A stretch of 41,110 nucleotides of DNA from Spirochaetota bacterium (GTDB taxonomy: Bacteria; Spirochaetota; UBA4802; UB4802). The DNA is taken from contig JBFLZD010000034.1 of assembly GCA_040756435.1 (NCBI GenBank), positions 1-41,110 on the forward strand. The letters are read 5' to 3'. Numbering within the stretch: position 1 is the stretch's first letter; each line of letters starts with the position of its first letter. A program made the position numbers and the translations under genes. The notes beneath the pieces were generated by a model. It was given only the letters and a program-made list of their open reading frames with translations. It had not been told where the DNA came from and searched no databases. Of this stretch, positions 16,151 through 40,441 are shown in pieces.

Positions 16151-16714
16151 ATGTCAGAATATAGTGATAATGAACTTATAGACAGGGTAATTGCAGGTGA
16201 CACTGATGCATTTGCTGATATCATTACACGATACCAGAACAAAATTTTCAGGTATGTGTATACACGTGTATATGACTATGATGAGGCATGTGATATGACT
16301 CAGGATATATTCCTTATTACCATGGAATCGTTAAAAACATTCCGGAAAGAATCTCAATTTTCAACTTGGCTTTTTAGCATAGCTGTTAATTACTGTAAAA
16401 ATCACCGAAGAAAAAACAGGCATAAAGTATATTCAATACACTCAACTCAGGATGAAACGGAAATACAAATTCCTGATATTCGCCAAAACCAGGAAGAACT
16501 TGTCATAACAAATGAATTATTGCAGATAATGCTTGAGGAAATCCATAGATTACCAGATGACTACCGGGATATCCTTGTTTTAAGAGATATAGAAGGTGAA
16601 TCATACTCAGCAATTGCGCAAGCGTTACATTTAACTTTGGCCAATGTTAAAGTTCGTATCCACCGTGGGCGTGAGATGTTAAAAACTCGTTTGCAGCAAA
16701 GGGGGCTTTTATGA
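16151..16714 (+). CDS. ECF RNA polymerase sigma factor
   Basis: 187 residues, RpoE-like. Region 2 spans about 10-80 (YQNKIFRYVYTRVYDYDEACDMTQDIFL, FSTWLFSIAVNYCKNHRRK) and region 4 about 125-180 (LPDDYRDILVLRDIEGESYSAIAQALHLTLANVKVRIHRGR). Its stop overlaps the start of the next gene (ATGA), a zinc-finger anti-sigma factor, so the two are translationally coupled and form a classical signal-responsive pair. It would direct transcription of an unknown regulon once released from the anti-sigma factor. Confidence 0.95.
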   Translation: MSEYSDNELIDRVIAGDTDAFADIITRYQNKIFRYVYTRVYDYDEACDMTQDIFLITMESLKTFRKESQFSTWLFSIAVNYCKNHRRKNRHKVYSIHSTQDETEIQIPDIRQNQEELVITNELLQIMLEEIHRLPDDYRDILVLRDIEGESYSAIAQALHLTLANVKVRIHRGREMLKTRLQQRGLL

Positions 16715-33059: not shown

Positions 33060-33947
33060 TGCTCTGACCCCTTTTATCTTTACATTCAATCTACAATAAA
33101 ATAGCGCTTGCTGTATTTTGCATCATAGCGCATAAACTTAGCTACTCTCTTTGCAAAACTATCCCCTAACTGGAAAAGAACTCATGATGGTCTATTAGCA
33201 CTTCTACATCAGCATCCTCTTGTAAATATGATTTAATCCTGCTGTAGAAGTATGCAGTGGTGTCAGAGCCCAGATTCTCCCCATCTCTGCGGTCTCTGCG
33301 TGAGACAAACTGATGTATCACGCAGAGTGCACTGAGTACGCTGAGTTATTAGAGAGATAGTGGGATTTTGGGGTCAGAGCCTTAATGGATAGGATGACTT
33401 GTTGCCTATACGTCATTCCGGTCATCTCTTTTTGTCATTTCGAACGTAGCGAGAAATCTTTGCTTCCCCCTTTAAGATTTCTCAGTCACTTTGTTCCTTC
33501 GAAATGACAGAGTAATACGGTCATTCCGGGCTTGACCCGGAATCTTTATCCTCACCATTGTGGATCCTGAATCAAGTTCAGGATGACTTTTTGCCTATAC
33601 ATCATTCCGGTCATCTCTTTTTGTCATTCCGAGCAATTCTTTTTGTCATTCCGTCCAATCCTTTATGTCATTTCGAGCAATTTTTTTTGTCATTTCGAGC
33701 GCAGCGAGAAATCTTTGCCTCCAACTTTAAGATTTCTCAGTCACTTTGTTCCTTCGAAATGACAGAGTAATACGGTCATTCCGGGCTTGACCCGGAATCT
33801 TTATCCTCACCAATAAGATCCTGAATCACGTTCAGGATGACTACACTGAATCAATCCTGAAATAAATTCAGGACATGATTCAGGATGACACCCTGTTATT
33901 CACTATAAAACCCCGCTGTGGCGATATTATTATAAGGGGTCAGAGCA
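33060..33947. repeat. 888-bp repeat block bounded by inverted TGCTCTGACCCC boxes
   Basis: TGCTCTGACCCC (33060-33071) and its reverse complement (33936-33947) bound the block, with another GGGGTCAGAGC at 33370-33380. Inside are a frameshifted pseudogene (33086-33290), a CTCTGCGTGA/TCACGCAGAG hairpin (33297-33326), and a repeat array. The array has a 125-bp unit at 33433-33557 that recurs at 33688-33812, made of TGTCATTTCGA..GCGAGAAATC, its inverted arm GATTTCTC..CGAAATGACA, and TCATTCCGGGCTTGACCCGG. Between are four shorter TGTCATTCCG units, and after it GATCCTGAATC..GTTCAGGATGAC hairpins. No gene is supported in 33360-33950. Confidence 0.8.
33086..33290 (-). pseudogene. Frameshifted C-terminal gene remnant
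   Basis: Reading the minus strand, one frame gives LGSDTTAYFYSRIKSYLQED... to IDHHEFF, where it meets a stop. A second frame, shifted by one, continues QLGDSFAKRVAKFMRYDAKY to SKRYFIVD and ends at 33086-33088. The two parts join naturally with a single frameshift, so it is a damaged gene end about 65 codons long. I do not recognise the family. The box-like GGTGTCAGAGCC at 33259-33270 is coding here and may not be a repeat box. Confidence 0.55.
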
Positions 33948-34055: not shown

Positions 34056-34093
34056 TAAAAAAAGGCGAACATAAAGGGGGTTCTATGTTCGCC
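34056..34093 (-). terminator. Intrinsic terminator after the FadL-like gene
   Basis: A 10-bp perfect stem GGCGAACATA/TATGTTCGCC (34064-34073 with 34084-34093) with a 10-base loop; on the minus strand it is followed by a T7 run. It lies about 60 bases after the stop at 34151. Confidence 0.85.
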
Positions 34094-34150: not shown

Positions 34151-35689
34151 TCACCAGCGCAATGCCACCTCCACAAATCCACTGTACACTGTGCCACTAT
34201 ACGAATAATCTGGGTATAATGCATCTATTTCAGCCTGACTGACATCATCATTAGTTGGATTCCCATCAAAATTTTCATAAATTTGTTCAATTGCAATCCT
34301 ATCCTTCTTTACCTGACGTTCCTGTAGCATTTGCATCTGCCCAGCTATAGTTATGACAATTGGAGCAACCATTGGCCCTGTTTTGGGGATGGTAAAGCTT
34401 AATCCCGCCGAACCAATATGAGTATTAGCATCCATGAAATTGAATAATGACGAGTCGTTCACTGCTTCATCAGGAACATAAGAAGGTCTGTATGAATATC
34501 CTAAATTCATAGTGAGCCATTGCATCTTAGGAGTAAGACATCCAAAGTTATAGCTTACACCAACTTTTGGCACAATGATATCCTGAAACTTGGGTATTTC
34601 TACCCCTTTATTTGCCCAGTATGCTTCTTTTGATTTAGAAACTTTACACTTTGACCACATCTGATATTCTACATCTACTGATAGTGTAAGACCCGATAGT
34701 GGTTTTATTGGCAAAAATGTATATGCAATACCACCAGAAATAATTTGTGGTGTATAGTAATCAAATATACTTAATGCCATTTCCAATGTTACACCTGCAG
34801 TATACAGTTCGGCACTGGTTGCAAATGGATCAACCTCCATATACACTTCACCTCTGTATGCAACGCCTAAATCAAGTCCCCTTAAAGCATTAATCTTTTT
34901 CCCAGGTGATATATATAATCCTGCAACAGGTGCTATTTTTGGAGTTAACTCCATCTGTACTTCAGAGTTTGGCGTCTGCTCATTTGGCCCAAGTTCAACC
35001 TGTGTTAAATTAACTGCACCTCTTCCGCCTGTCCACACGTTGGCACCAACTCCAATGCCAAAAACATCATCCATAAATCCAAATCCCAACCCTGCCAGTA
35101 TAACTGCACGCTCAGCTTCTTTGCCGTACCTAACAAAGTCATGAGTCCGCAAATCTATATCATATACTTTAACCAGCGATCCATCCTGCATCAATCCCAA
35201 TCCAAGGCCAAATCTGCTTGATGATATGAACGAAGGCATCTTTACAAAATGATTCAAATCAAGCACCAGTCCTAATGTAACCGTTCCAAAGTTAAGCTCC
35301 TTATCGGCAACAATATCAGTGCGCGGGATATCAATTTTCATCTGCGGCTGCGTGTACATATAATTGATTGCCAGCTGATCTTTATAGGGGAAAATATCAT
35401 ACGGTGATATCGTTGTTTCGGTAACTGTTGTTTCCTGCTTTCCGCCTTTTTGTAAGGTCATTTCCTTTTTTTCCTGTACAGGTTCTAGTATATATCCCCT
35501 TGTTCTGCCAAGTCCTGCAATATTGTAATAAACGCTTGACCAGTCATTAACCACTGCAGTCATAGCATTTCCGCGTGAAATTCCAATGGCACTAAATCCA
35601 TACGTATCGGCAAAGTTTGCAAACGCAATCGTTTGCACAGTAACTATCGCCACAAAAATTAACAAAACTTTGCTCATTAATCTATACAT
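34151..35689 (-). CDS. FadL/OMPP1-like outer-membrane protein
   Basis: 512 residues from ATG 35689 (GGAGG box). A signal peptide ends at about AFA-NF (24). The mature N-terminus (DTYGFSAIGISRGNAMTAVVNDWSSVYYNIAGLG) matches the FadL-family hatch pattern. Beta-barrel strands follow, ending in an aromatic C-terminus (FVEVALRW). FadL proteins move hydrophobic molecules across the outer membrane. It lies 148 bases downstream of the giant lipoprotein gene on the same strand, so the two probably form a unit, ended by the terminator at 34056. A dispersed word lies in the signal-peptide region (35642-35650). Confidence 0.85.
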   Translation of the reverse strand: MYRLMSKVLLIFVAIVTVQTIAFANFADTYGFSAIGISRGNAMTAVVNDWSSVYYNIAGLGRTRGYILEPVQEKKEMTLQKGGKQETTVTETTISPYDIFPYKDQLAINYMYTQPQMKIDIPRTDIVADKELNFGTVTLGLVLDLNHFVKMPSFISSSRFGLGLGLMQDGSLVKVYDIDLRTHDFVRYGKEAERAVILAGLGFGFMDDVFGIGVGANVWTGGRGAVNLTQVELGPNEQTPNSEVQMELTPKIAPVAGLYISPGKKINALRGLDLGVAYRGEVYMEVDPFATSAELYTAGVTLEMALSIFDYYTPQIISGGIAYTFLPIKPLSGLTLSVDVEYQMWSKCKVSKSKEAYWANKGVEIPKFQDIIVPKVGVSYNFGCLTPKMQWLTMNLGYSYRPSYVPDEAVNDSSLFNFMDANTHIGSAGLSFTIPKTGPMVAPIVITIAGQMQMLQERQVKKDRIAIEQIYENFDGNPTNDDVSQAEIDALYPDYSYSGTVYSGFVEVALRW

Positions 35690-35802
35690 TATAACCTCCA
35701 TACTATTTTTTATACTTCAATTGGTGTATATGATATTATCCCGCACCCTTCACTTTTTTTATCTTGTTCGATAGTTCCCGTCATCATTCTACTGTACTAT
35801 AT

Positions 35803-35837
35803 GCAGCCTCACGCTAAAACGTAAGGCTGCACTTTTT
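35803..35837. terminator. Hairpin between the giant lipoprotein and FadL-like genes
   Basis: GCAGCCTCACG/CGTAAGGCTGC (35803-35813 with 35820-35830, one mismatch), followed on the + strand by ACTTTTTTT. It lies directly after the lipoprotein stop. Because the T-run is on the wrong side for the minus-strand gene, it could be a weak or attenuating terminator rather than a strong one. Confidence 0.4.
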
Positions 35838-38800
35838 TTACTTTGTTAATACCTGACCAAGCCCTGAATATGGATCAAACTCATCGCTATACAGATATTC
35901 AGATGGCGATGAAATTACAGGCTTTGAATAATCCTCAAATGTTGTTGCTTTATAGTACCTACCTGCCTCCACATCATTCATCATGCTGGCTAATGCAACA
36001 AGGAGCTCACCTAAATCATCCCACAGGCGTGAATCAGGATTTGCTATTAAATCAGTTCCCAGGAATGCATACAGCTCTTCAAGCACCTGCTGCGATGGAT
36101 AACGTGATGACAGGTTAGTCATAAAGTATTCCATAAACCCATCATCCACCAGCATGTTGTTAGCAACTGTTAGGAGATTGGCATAATGGCCTGAAAATCC
36201 ATTTAAAATAGTAGGTAAATTGGTTGTCAGAATATCATTCAACTCATTGGGAACTACCCACTGGCTACCGTCATAGTAATACAATACAGCTCCTAACGTA
36301 TGACGCAATCCTTTAAGCTGTGAATCGGTTGCCGTAAAGCTTGTAAGCGATTTATCCAGCACAGTAATGAGGTCTTCAGTAATATTATATTGCCCGGTTG
36401 TTGTTCCATGAGAGCTCATAAGCTCTGCTATGCCATTCATAAGCTTGTAGTAGTTATTCCAGTTGCGGTCAGGATTGCTATCATCCCTTCCATCAACAAA
36501 TACCGCAAGCCCCTTTTCATTGTTTTCAGGTATATTATCAGTATCTGAGAAGCCAATGAGTTCATCAAGGGCGGTGTTAAAATTTACTATACCATGATTT
36601 TCATCAGATGTACTTAATGTACCATCATTGTTAGTAAACATCCATGATGGATAACTTATACTTTCAATATAATACCCACTTTGCAATTCTTTACTCTTTG
36701 CTGCCTTAATTGTTGTTACAACCTGTTCCAAACCATAGAATATCTTTTGTTTTGCTCCCCAGTCACCATAACTGGTGCTGTCTTCATTTTGATATGCATA
36801 TACACCATCATTCCTGCCTGTCTTTTGCAAAAATGCCAATAGCTTACTTACCATGCGGGTATTTGCCAATGCAGGGATAAGACCATCTGCTGAACCTGTT
36901 GTATTTTCAGTTAATATATTTGCCACAGTACGTAAGCTTTGCGTGGGTTTAAAATCTACTGCACTATCAGTAGGCTTTGGAGTAAAGTATGCATATATCC
37001 CTCTCCCATGCGGATCATTCATCTGTGGCACAAACCATCCCTTTGATGCCCCAGTATAGGGAGTTTTGTAATAACGCACTACAGGGCTTGTCAGCGATGA
37101 TATAAGATCACCTAAATACTTTAATGGGTATTTATGATTACCAGCAAAATTGTACCAGTAACCACTTGCACTGGGTTCGTAGTATGATTTTCCGTGTAAT
37201 ACACCCGCGAGTGCTGCTACAATGGGAAGCAATTTATTGCGGTTTTGCCACACGGATGAGGATTCATTGCCTATATCCGATGAATTGGAGGCAACGTAGT
37301 CTTGCTGTAAAAATGCCATTCGGGCCATGGTAACTATATTGTCACCAATAACATTTGGAAGTACATTACCTTGGCCTAAAATTGTATCCCAAATAGTGTC
37401 AACACCAACATAATCACCATCAGTATTGCCAAGTAAATTTTTCCATGAACTATCCTCTTTAACAATAACCCACAACCGTCCATCACCAGGCAAAAATGAA
37501 TCCCCATAATTAACACCATTTGGTTGTGTGCGTACAATATCCAGACCCTGATTTCCTTTAAACACCCATGTACCCACACTCCCAGTTTTCTTTGCCGTTG
37601 CCATTCCAACCAGACCATTACCTTCAATAATAACAAAGACAGGTGCATCTATATATAAATCAATACCACACGTTAAAGCTGCTACAGCATGTATATATAC
37701 ATAAGATGTCATAGGCATTATAAACACAAATTTCTTTTCTAAAACCAGCCATTGGAAATTGCGATACATTGCTTCTTCCTGGCTGGCACATGCACGAGCG
37801 CCATCCCCTTCAGCAATCTTTTCAAAAAATCGTATTGCCCCAGAGTTGCTGGTAAATGCATCCAGATCATCGCTATATTGATTTCTTCCTGTGGTACCTT
37901 TTAATGAATGCATTTTATATTTTGCAAGTGAGTCAGTTGCATCAGTTACCACACTTGCTGGGGAGTAATATCCTGTCCAACCAGTTGGAGCATGGTTACT
38001 ATCGTCATGATAATTTATATTTGTTGAACGGACAAGATAATGATCAGTATCCCAGTATGGCTTATAGCGATTGTCGCGCAATTTAAAAGTTCCTTTATCT
38101 GTGACCAGCGTTTGACCACTTGGATCATCCGCATCGTTCCCGCCATCAGATGGATAGAAATATTCCCAGGTTGCAGGATCACCGCTTGGCTTATGAACAA
38201 ATGCATAAATTCTTCCATCAGGTCTGTAATATACATAATATGTTTTACTGCCACTCACAACCGTGGAAGCATTTGGATCAGCATAATAATATGGTCCTTC
38301 GCCCTCCCAACAAGCCCGAGCTATCCAGCCCATAGTCCATCGTCCAGTGTTTAATTCGCCAAGACCATTACCCACATATGGGTAATACGTTCGATAGTCA
38401 TTATTAGCATGACCAACTGTAGTGTCATTGCTGGTTGGCGTTATGCCGGTCCTACCACCATTGGGTATACCTGCATCTCCAGCACATGCACCACTTAATA
38501 GCGCAAGCACTGGGAAATCTGAACCTAAATAAAATTTATAATTATCAGCCTGAGCTGAAGTAAAAGCATTTTTTGCACGGAATAAATAATCACCCTGCCC
38601 CCTGCTAGACAAACTTGTACTTGTCACAAGCCCACCTGTCTTCCCACTCCAAGTATTACCAGTTACCCTGCAATCAAGTGCTAAATTATAGGCACCCAAA
38701 TACCACATGGTAAATCCCTGGCTTGCACTCCGCGCTTCTTTTAATCCACCAACAGTAGGATACAAGCTGTCATTAACTGTCATAATACCACCCGTTGGCA

Positions 38801-40133
38801 AGCCATGCAGCCGTGCCGTTAAACCACCACTTCCGCTTGTATAATTATTCAGATAATTATTTTGATATGGTTCGTTGCTGTCATAGTAAGGTGATGCTGT
38901 CACCTTCCTTGTTAAAAAACCAAATTCATTGGCGAGCTTAAGGGTATACAAAAGATGCTCCAGATATGATACCTTGTAGGTTTCGCTGCTTCGCATCTTT
39001 CCCTCACCATTGTATATAACCATACGTAATAATGAAGGTTCAAGCTCATAATTATCAAAATCTATTCCACAATTAAGTTTTAAATTATACAGGGACTCTG
39101 ATAAGCATTCTATTATTGAACGCCCTTGTGCATCTTTTATTGGCGTATCTGCGTTATTCTCTTTCCCGCGTATAAAAAGTGTCATAAGAGCTGGCCACAT
39201 GCTCCTCAAGCCATTGCGCAGTTCGGTGTTTACATAATAACCCGTAGCTACACCTGTTGTATCTGAATAATAATTTGTTTGAGTAGAACCATTGCCATAA
39301 TACTGACCACCCACTGTGGCATAATCCTCGGCATTTATCATAAGCTCTTTTAAAATGTCTGCAAATGAGTTGCTGCCTGCACTTGCCGTCAAAAGATTTC
39401 CAGTTTCACGGATGACATCATACAGCGCTTCACGTGCTTCAGGGTCACCGGTTGCTATATCATTAATTCCTGAAAGCAGGGCATCCATACCATTGACAGC
39501 ATTGCCCAGCCGATTGTTGTTGTCATCATAAAAGGTGTTTGCCCGCACTAACAATTTCCCAAGGCCTTCCTGCAATTGTGGAAATACTGTTTTTAAATTT
39601 TGCCCATCGCTGTCCTGTAAAAATGCAATCAAATCAGCCATTACGGTTTCTATTTCACTTCCATGGGCATACTGTATGTAGCCTATTATTTTGCGTAACA
39701 TATTTAATATTTCATTGCTGGTACCAGGGCTTGTTGCACTTAAATCGTCTAAAAAGCTATACAAATCTGTTGCATAGCTATCATAACTGTCATTAGGCCA
39801 GTCATAGTCGTCCTGTTGCAGTATTCTTCCAATGATAGAACGAAGTGCACCAATGGTATCAACAAGAGGATCAACAACTGAAGGATCAGCCACAACAGGC
39901 AACACATCTTTAACAGCATCCACATCCGCATTAATTGAATCAGCTAAAAGAATATTAAATGTATGCTGATCAATCCCGGAAAATGCATCATACAGCGCTG
40001 GATAATCATCTAAAAGGTCAAAAAGGCGGTATGGTGGCTCAGGGTCATTGCGCTGAAACCAGAACTTACCCTGAGAACACGAAGTTATGAACATTACAAT
40101 GAATATGAATAGAAATGATTTCAACACTTTCAT
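35838..40133 (-). CDS. Giant lipoprotein, 1431 residues
   Basis: Starts at ATG 40133, with a strong AGGAGGGG box; the frame is open further to 40409 but that part lies in promoter DNA. Residues 1-19 are a lipoprotein signal ending in ITSC, so Cys19 is the lipid anchor. The mature part has an acidic N-terminal helical section (about 30-450, DDLxxYPALYDAF, DLLxxL repeats), a middle Gly/Asn/Thr/Tyr-rich section of mostly beta character (about 500-1050), and a helical C-terminal section (about 1230-1431). I recognise no domain. It may be a surface adhesin, structural or carbohydrate-binding protein. It is followed by the FadL-like gene. Confidence 0.9.
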   Translation of the reverse strand: MKVLKSFLFIFIVMFITSCSQGKFWFQRNDPEPPYRLFDLLDDYPALYDAFSGIDQHTFNILLADSINADVDAVKDVLPVVADPSVVDPLVDTIGALRSIIGRILQQDDYDWPNDSYDSYATDLYSFLDDLSATSPGTSNEILNMLRKIIGYIQYAHGSEIETVMADLIAFLQDSDGQNLKTVFPQLQEGLGKLLVRANTFYDDNNNRLGNAVNGMDALLSGINDIATGDPEAREALYDVIRETGNLLTASAGSNSFADILKELMINAEDYATVGGQYYGNGSTQTNYYSDTTGVATGYYVNTELRNGLRSMWPALMTLFIRGKENNADTPIKDAQGRSIIECLSESLYNLKLNCGIDFDNYELEPSLLRMVIYNGEGKMRSSETYKVSYLEHLLYTLKLANEFGFLTRKVTASPYYDSNEPYQNNYLNNYTSGSGGLTARLHGLPTGGIMTVNDSLYPTVGGLKEARSASQGFTMWYLGAYNLALDCRVTGNTWSGKTGGLVTSTSLSSRGQGDYLFRAKNAFTSAQADNYKFYLGSDFPVLALLSGACAGDAGIPNGGRTGITPTSNDTTVGHANNDYRTYYPYVGNGLGELNTGRWTMGWIARACWEGEGPYYYADPNASTVVSGSKTYYVYYRPDGRIYAFVHKPSGDPATWEYFYPSDGGNDADDPSGQTLVTDKGTFKLRDNRYKPYWDTDHYLVRSTNINYHDDSNHAPTGWTGYYSPASVVTDATDSLAKYKMHSLKGTTGRNQYSDDLDAFTSNSGAIRFFEKIAEGDGARACASQEEAMYRNFQWLVLEKKFVFIMPMTSYVYIHAVAALTCGIDLYIDAPVFVIIEGNGLVGMATAKKTGSVGTWVFKGNQGLDIVRTQPNGVNYGDSFLPGDGRLWVIVKEDSSWKNLLGNTDGDYVGVDTIWDTILGQGNVLPNVIGDNIVTMARMAFLQQDYVASNSSDIGNESSSVWQNRNKLLPIVAALAGVLHGKSYYEPSASGYWYNFAGNHKYPLKYLGDLISSLTSPVVRYYKTPYTGASKGWFVPQMNDPHGRGIYAYFTPKPTDSAVDFKPTQSLRTVANILTENTTGSADGLIPALANTRMVSKLLAFLQKTGRNDGVYAYQNEDSTSYGDWGAKQKIFYGLEQVVTTIKAAKSKELQSGYYIESISYPSWMFTNNDGTLSTSDENHGIVNFNTALDELIGFSDTDNIPENNEKGLAVFVDGRDDSNPDRNWNNYYKLMNGIAELMSSHGTTTGQYNITEDLITVLDKSLTSFTATDSQLKGLRHTLGAVLYYYDGSQWVVPNELNDILTTNLPTILNGFSGHYANLLTVANNMLVDDGFMEYFMTNLSSRYPSQQVLEELYAFLGTDLIANPDSRLWDDLGELLVALASMMNDVEAGRYYKATTFEDYSKPVISSPSEYLYSDEFDPYSGLGQVLTK

Positions 40134-40411
40134 ACACCCCTCCTGGATTACATGAAATATTTTTTTTGTTTTTAATAATGAATACATTGTCGATTGGATT
40201 ATATGTATTACTATAAAAATGGTACTGACATGTCGGTCTATTATATCAACATGCTTCCGACGATTAAGTACCATATTCCCCACAAAAAAACGTTTTATTA
40301 AACACTCACCATCTGTTTTGGGTGCTAAAATTTGACATGATGTTTTCATAACAAACCCTTTCAAACTGGCGTACCAGTATTTACCGTCTGGATGTACTAA
40401 TTCATGCATAT

Positions 40412-40441
40412 ATATTAATACCGACTGGTAAGTATTGTCAA
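40412..40441 (-). promoter_or_regulatory. Promoter with operator-like repeat for the giant lipoprotein
   Basis: On the minus strand TTGACA (40436-40441) and TAATAT (40412-40417) are 18 bases apart, a near-consensus sigma-70 promoter. Its spacer contains TACC-N4-GGTA (40419-40430), an inverted repeat resembling TetR-family operators. Transcription would start near 40405 and leave a ~270-base leader to ATG 40133; the leader has further GACCGACATGTCAG-like sequence near 40230 and a short reading frame from ATG 40349 with a GAAAGGG box. Confidence 0.55.

Follow-up and report, generated by a model that had tools for sequence, protein, structure and literature searches.

This report concerns a pair of genes on the minus strand of a 41,110-nucleotide stretch of Spirochaetota DNA (the window; contig JBFLZD010000034.1 of assembly GCA_040756435.1), one encoding a giant lipoprotein and the other an outer-membrane barrel of the FadL type. 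Our essential contention is that the two probably constitute an operon for the acquisition of lipid at the outer membrane, controlled by a FadR-like repressor. This draws on two observations: the pairing is real and old, chance being excluded because it is conserved across the phylum, and an operator that occupies the spacer of the lipoprotein promoter, with a further copy in the leader, is common to the pair and to a cluster of TetR and beta-oxidation genes. The second of these is new here, and the operator sequences point strongly to a link between the pair and a fatty-acid regulon.

Co-occurrence and inheritance of the pair

Family profiles of the lipoprotein and of the FadL subfamily were run over the same 393 Spirochaetota genomes, with cut-offs of E <= 1e-6 and E <= 1e-12 respectively, and found the former in 38 genomes and the latter in 37. 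An earlier note on this DNA had proposed a functional pair, to be doubted should the genes rarely co-occur or be transcribed separately. Co-occurrence is the rule: 36 genomes have both, two the lipoprotein only, one FadL only and 354 neither (Fisher p = 2e-47, which overstates the association, since the test counts genomes as independent and related ones are not). Independent support comes from the match holding in at least seven families. The three exceptions are G004, in which the contig ends inside the lipoprotein gene, G155, which is 83% complete, and G144. Each of the four congeners has the lipoprotein, other families of the order have it too, and a genome often carries several copies; a search of a plasmid collection found no homologue.

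Same-strand adjacency with the lipoprotein gene first is seen in families f1, f4, f5, f11, f22 and f34 and in part of f7, and in f34 the two genes overlap by four bases; the pair is also present in G095. Two genomes, G161 and G199, carry two cassettes each. Compared between these species, the lipoproteins agree at 91% and 85% and the FadL proteins at 94% and 86%, against 38% and 47% when one cassette is compared with the other; the members of each cassette are thus orthologous together, and the cassettes have therefore been inherited as units. The genes are unlinked in G014 and, as described below, in most of genus g12, where the transcripts must be separate and an operator is nevertheless shared. 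The proposal of a functional pair is supported by the co-occurrence. Acyl-CoA dehydrogenase gave at least ten matches in all 20 of 20 lipoprotein-positive relatives; its presence, considered as a predictor of the pair, looks necessary but not sufficient.

A shared operator and the fatty-acid regulon

The lipoprotein gene is preceded by a promoter of the form TTGACA-18-TAATAT (40441..40412). When the leaders of four congeners are aligned, a near-invariant block covers both this promoter and the palindrome AATACTTACCAGTCGGTATT in its spacer, and operator 2 lies about 197 bases downstream of operator 1. The earlier note had called the promoter strong; consensus matches alone are weak evidence for it, given that the scan found 36 sites where 31 were expected by chance, but it is nearly invariant among the congeners.

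The operator pattern TACYGACNNGTMRGTA was scanned over the whole of the window's own genome (G000), allowing at most one mismatch and using the reversed pattern as a control, and returned nine sites against three for the control. Two of the nine lie at the lipoprotein promoter. Another two, both perfect, stand on either side of a TetR gene (contig C6, about 62569-63183), whose neighbours on one side are the genes for SCP2, long-chain acyl-CoA ligase and thiolase and on the other those for acyl-CoA dehydrogenase, hydroxyacyl-CoA dehydrogenase and enoyl-CoA hydratase. Further sites precede alpha/beta-hydrolase (lipase-like) genes, a DUF4398 lipoprotein and a second FadL-like gene (L152:4042-5616, contig C78, with the operator just upstream; PF03349 2e-6, just under the cut-off), and one falls within a gene, probably by chance. 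The C6 TetR protein matches PF00440 at 5.4e-16 and is not a member of the curated FadR model NF053878 (43.6 bits against a cut-off of 200); its context, with perfect operators on both sides of its own gene inside a beta-oxidation cluster, makes it likely to be FadR-like.

The same arrangement recurs in relatives. In the congeners G001 to G004, TACYGACNNGTMRGTA sites flank the TetR gene and, wherever the contig extends far enough to include the promoter region of a lipoprotein operon, are found ahead of that operon too. In G017, of family f4, one site precedes the lipoprotein gene by 89 bases, another adjoins the TetR gene within the same fad cluster, and others lie ahead of lipase-like genes; G008, also of f4, has the operator beside the TetR gene alone. 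The operator accompanies lipase-like genes in f1 as well as in f4. The earlier note had offered lipid import or adhesion as the function of the pair, and because the operators are shared with beta-oxidation and lipase-like genes it is lipid import that is favoured.

Genus g12 shows what becomes of this regulation when the genes are apart. Its genomes have several lipoproteins, single or in tandem, and in most of them FadL is elsewhere, adjoined by a homologue of the C6 TetR (39% identity). The upstream regions of the g12 FadL genes have AAACCGTCTGGACGGTTT in common. When 215 kilobases of g12 loci were scanned for this motif with up to three mismatches, it was matched ahead of FadL in five genomes and ahead of lipoprotein genes at five loci; there was one additional weak match, near a lipoprotein, and none elsewhere (the scrambled control gave one match). 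The palindrome at these FadL and lipoprotein sites, AAACCGTCYGGACGGTTT, is different from the TACYGACNNGTMRGTA operator. All six of the six non-FadL matches are upstream of lipoproteins (chance p ~2e-9). With the motif at both FadL and the lipoproteins, we conclude that separation of the two genes has not removed them from the control of a single operator.

The locus and its two proteins

The earlier description of a same-strand pair closed by one terminator proved accurate: on the minus strand, the lipoprotein gene is followed by a 148-nucleotide gap, the FadL gene and a single U-tailed terminator (Table 1). A consensus scan of the gap for a minus-strand promoter-like site found none. The hairpin within it is a possible processing or partial attenuation site; seven A residues precede this hairpin, which on the plus strand would pass for a terminator. 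In the FadL frame the first ATG, at 35701, precedes the Shine-Dalgarno sequence GGAGG, which sits within the first codons of that frame, and the start was therefore placed downstream. The lipoprotein frame stays open for 92 codons further upstream of its ATG, an extension we regard as leader and not protein because it contains an operator and has indels between relatives; a search of the leader for a riboswitch gave no match in Rfam. Some 700 bases of contig remain upstream of the lipoprotein promoter, and downstream of the terminator the noncoding interval 33400-33900 of the window has dispersed direct repeats (ATTCCGGGCTTGACCCGGAAT and flanks).

Table 1. Features of the lipoprotein-FadL locus, in window coordinates.
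Feature	Position	Strand	Details
-35 hexamer TTGACA	40441..40436	minus	consensus scan; kept in four congeneric genomes
-10 hexamer TAATAT	40417..40412	minus	consensus scan; congener alignment
Operator 1, AATACTTACCAGTCGGTATT	40417..40436 (core 40419-40434)		imperfect palindrome; occupies the -35/-10 spacer
Leader	40134..40411	minus	about 280 nucleotides, with AGGAGGGG Shine-Dalgarno; open frame 5' of the ATG taken as leader
Operator 2, TAGACCGACATGTCAGTACC	40221..40240 (core 40223-40238)		in leader
Giant lipoprotein gene	40133..35838	minus	ATG 40133; 1431 residues; AGGAGGGG Shine-Dalgarno; lipobox signal peptide
Intercistronic hairpin without U tract	35832..35802	minus	with flanks folds at -24.6 kcal/mol, z = -6.2
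FadL/TodX-family outer-membrane barrel gene	35689..34151	minus	512 residues; signal peptide; hatch motif NIAG instead of NPAG
Rho-independent terminator	34093..34064, tail 34063-34057	minus	12-base-pair stem and T7; -17.3 kcal/mol, z = -7.4

The assignment of the second protein as FadL-like holds. The profile of its family matches TbuX (3BRY) at E = 1.1e-5, and PF03349 is found in six of 22 FadL homologues (best 2.2e-8); the window protein alone has no match in Pfam. Its best NCBIfam score is to the AupA model (2.5e-10, 39.5 bits against a cut-off of 840), and the FilD model (NF050080) is weakly touched at E = 0.0065. The asparagine of the hatch is conserved and comes some 32 residues after the predicted mature start. 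Throughout the window's order, the window protein included, the NPA motif lacks its proline and reads N-x-A/S/G; some homologues from f34, f11 and f22 have the proline. Judged from these sequence comparisons, the barrel appears to be a diverged member of the FadL/TodX family.

The lipoprotein has the lipobox ITSC, with C19 as the lipidated cysteine, and a conserved FQxNDPxP motif soon after it; it is composed of 6.9% tyrosine, 9.1% glycine and 6.9% asparagine. Against Pfam, NCBIfam and the PDB sequences its family gave chance-level matches only (MIP-T3, designed proteins, haemagglutinin), besides a beta/gamma-crystallin insert in a few paralogues. As far as Pfam and NCBIfam go, the earlier statement that the protein has no recognised domain is correct. 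Structure prediction in segments, which that note had recommended, gave a confident AlphaFold2 model of residues 20-1215 (predicted local distance difference test 79.2, predicted template modelling score 0.82), in which the first 190 residues or so are the weak part, and a poor model of the C-terminal 672 residues (predicted template modelling score 0.50). The longer model is helical at the start and mixed afterwards; the protein had been described as beta-rich, which holds only in part: in the models its N-terminal part and much of its C-terminal part are helical, with mixed structure in the middle. A Foldseek search of residues 20-1215 against the PDB found no match (best E = 1.3), and searches of the C-terminal 672 residues against the PDB and of residues 20-1215 against viral models found nothing below E = 1. 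The lipoprotein thus represents a large family absent from Pfam, from NCBIfam and, by fold, from the PDB. Beyond the signal peptide there is no strongly hydrophobic segment longer than a predicted beta-hairpin (approximately residues 800-840); this hairpin was considered as a membrane insertion and set aside, its length varying among relatives.

Several features of relatives and neighbours may be recorded. The g12 lipoprotein paralogues at L083, L084, L085 and L086 carry the beta/gamma-crystallin-type insert at roughly residues 130-210, and PF08964 is matched by two of 33 members of the lipoprotein family. In f34 and f11, at L116:8890-11859 and ten other loci, the gene directly 5' of the pair encodes another large protein that resembles a lipoprotein (about 960-1380 residues, with a Big_5 Ig-like domain) and is likely to be a third component there. 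A recurrent neighbour of about 350 residues with a membrane anchor (L048:1665-2714, L055:1957-3000, L076:17214-18281 and nine other loci) has alpha/beta-hydrolase-like motifs and conserved Cys156, Asp290 and His322, and no match in Pfam or the PDB. Elsewhere in the window, 16151-16714 on the plus strand encodes a protein of 187 residues, sigma-factor-like in appearance, with homologues near lipoprotein genes at the g12 loci L068, L072 and L084.

Mechanism, alternatives and known systems

The mechanism we favour begins with the availability of long-chain acyl groups, upon which the FadR-type TetR repressor encoded on contig C6 would come off operators 1 and 2. Production of the lipoprotein and barrel would then accompany that of the acyl-CoA ligase, SCP2, the beta-oxidation enzymes, the lipase-like enzymes and another FadL-like barrel. 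Held by its N-terminal lipid and possessing a sizeable fold of its own, the giant lipoprotein would act at the outer membrane, binding fatty acids, lipids or lipid particles there and passing lipid to its partner barrel, through which the lipid would move inward by the FadL mechanism. We infer, rather than observe, acyl-CoA as the ligand of the repressor, the contact between lipoprotein and barrel, the surface side, the binding of lipid and the substrate.

Several points weigh against this account. Sequence does not decide on which side of the membrane the lipoprotein lies, and its model shows no recognised lipid-binding fold. About three TACYGACNNGTMRGTA sites are expected by chance in the genome at up to one mismatch, making single one-mismatch sites weak. 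The operator scan found none of these operators beside the pair in f5, in the greater part of f4, or in members of f7 other than g12. Because the FadL regions were the source of the g12 motif, only its matches at lipoproteins are an independent test, and with one FadL to several lipoproteins in that genus a strict 1:1 complex is not general. Finally, many relatives are rich in acyl-CoA dehydrogenases without having the pair, which is thus not needed for general fatty-acid use.

Classical FadL acts without a partner (PMC5989066). A barrel that does have one is the alkane-uptake protein AupA of Marinobacter, which works with the inner-membrane protein AupB; the two are encoded in a two-gene operon, the partner annotated as of unknown function, they are induced on hydrophobic substrate and they co-precipitate (PMC5989066). 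The locus described here likewise couples a FadL-type barrel with a partner of unknown function in an operon of two genes. A somewhat unlikely alternative, for which AupB and AupA offer a comparison, has the lipoprotein facing the periplasm and carrying lipid from the barrel toward the inner membrane. The best NCBIfam score of the window barrel, although far under the cut-off, is to AupA, which acts and co-precipitates with its inner-membrane partner (PMC5989066), and the regulon evidence fits equally well. However, AupB is an inner-membrane protein by description and is not described as a lipoprotein (PMC5989066), in contrast to the 1431-residue lipoprotein here, and the Big_5 lipoproteins of f34 and f11 and the crystallin-type inserts of g12 are more usual in exported or surface proteins, a weak argument.

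FadL homologues also serve in the handling of proteins: BamG, of the Bacteroidota BAM complex, binds the surface lipoprotein BamH through its extracellular loops, and PorV serves the type IX system (PMC12578637). On such a model the lipoprotein would be an adhesin or surface-layer protein that fastens the cell to an oil droplet, a particle or a partner cell, with the barrel secreting or displaying it; the several lipoprotein paralogues to one barrel in g12 would suit this. We consider it unlikely, since those systems assemble or secrete proteins, whereas the operators here are common with beta-oxidation and lipase-like genes. Moreover, BamG is set apart from FadL by an N-terminal extension of about ten residues (PMC12578637), of which the window barrel gives no sign, as far as the distance from mature start to hatch asparagine indicates, E. 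coli FadL not having been aligned directly. If the adhesion were to lipid droplets, it would not conflict with the lipid-acquisition operon. That a FadL channel merely follows an unrelated surface protein, as the unlinked genes of g12 and G014 might suggest, is very improbable in the face of the co-occurrence, of cassettes kept as units and of an operator shared even when the genes are unlinked.

Other comparisons serve to place the lipid-acquisition operon that we prefer. Within the FadL/TodX/TbuX family (PF03349), which is characterised by a 14-stranded, laterally open barrel and the transport of hydrophobic substrates, the barrel of the window is set apart by the giant lipoprotein alongside it and by the hatch without proline. 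The Acinetobacter Fil cluster, to which FilD belongs, likewise has a FadL-like protein within a multi-gene surface system, but is annotated as a putative pilus system, and the lipoprotein matches no NCBIfam model. In SusC-SusD a barrel and a lipid-anchored partner are produced from one operon for nutrient capture, which is the layout found here; the difference is that FadL is not TonB-dependent and that the search of the lipoprotein model against the PDB, SusD included, found no counterpart. Our search of open-licence papers found no account of a lipoprotein-FadL pair. It is quite possible, though we advance it tentatively, that the pair represents a separate class of outer-membrane importer, ancient in Spirochaetota and under acyl-responsive TetR control. 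In it a FadL-type barrel would be joined by a very large lipoprotein on the cell surface, novel in fold, whose task would be to capture lipid or lipid particles, and the whole would be to FadL what the SusCD arrangement is to SusC.

Long-chain fatty acids and alcohols serve as carbon sources for Turneriella parva (PMC3746428), and how spirochaetes take up fatty acids has been stated to be an open question in the case of Treponema pallidum (PMC8407342). FadL has been thought to act alone; a conserved giant partner that lacks any known fold and carries the operator of the fatty-acid genes provides a specific candidate importer that can be tested, with its genes, regulator and operator now named.

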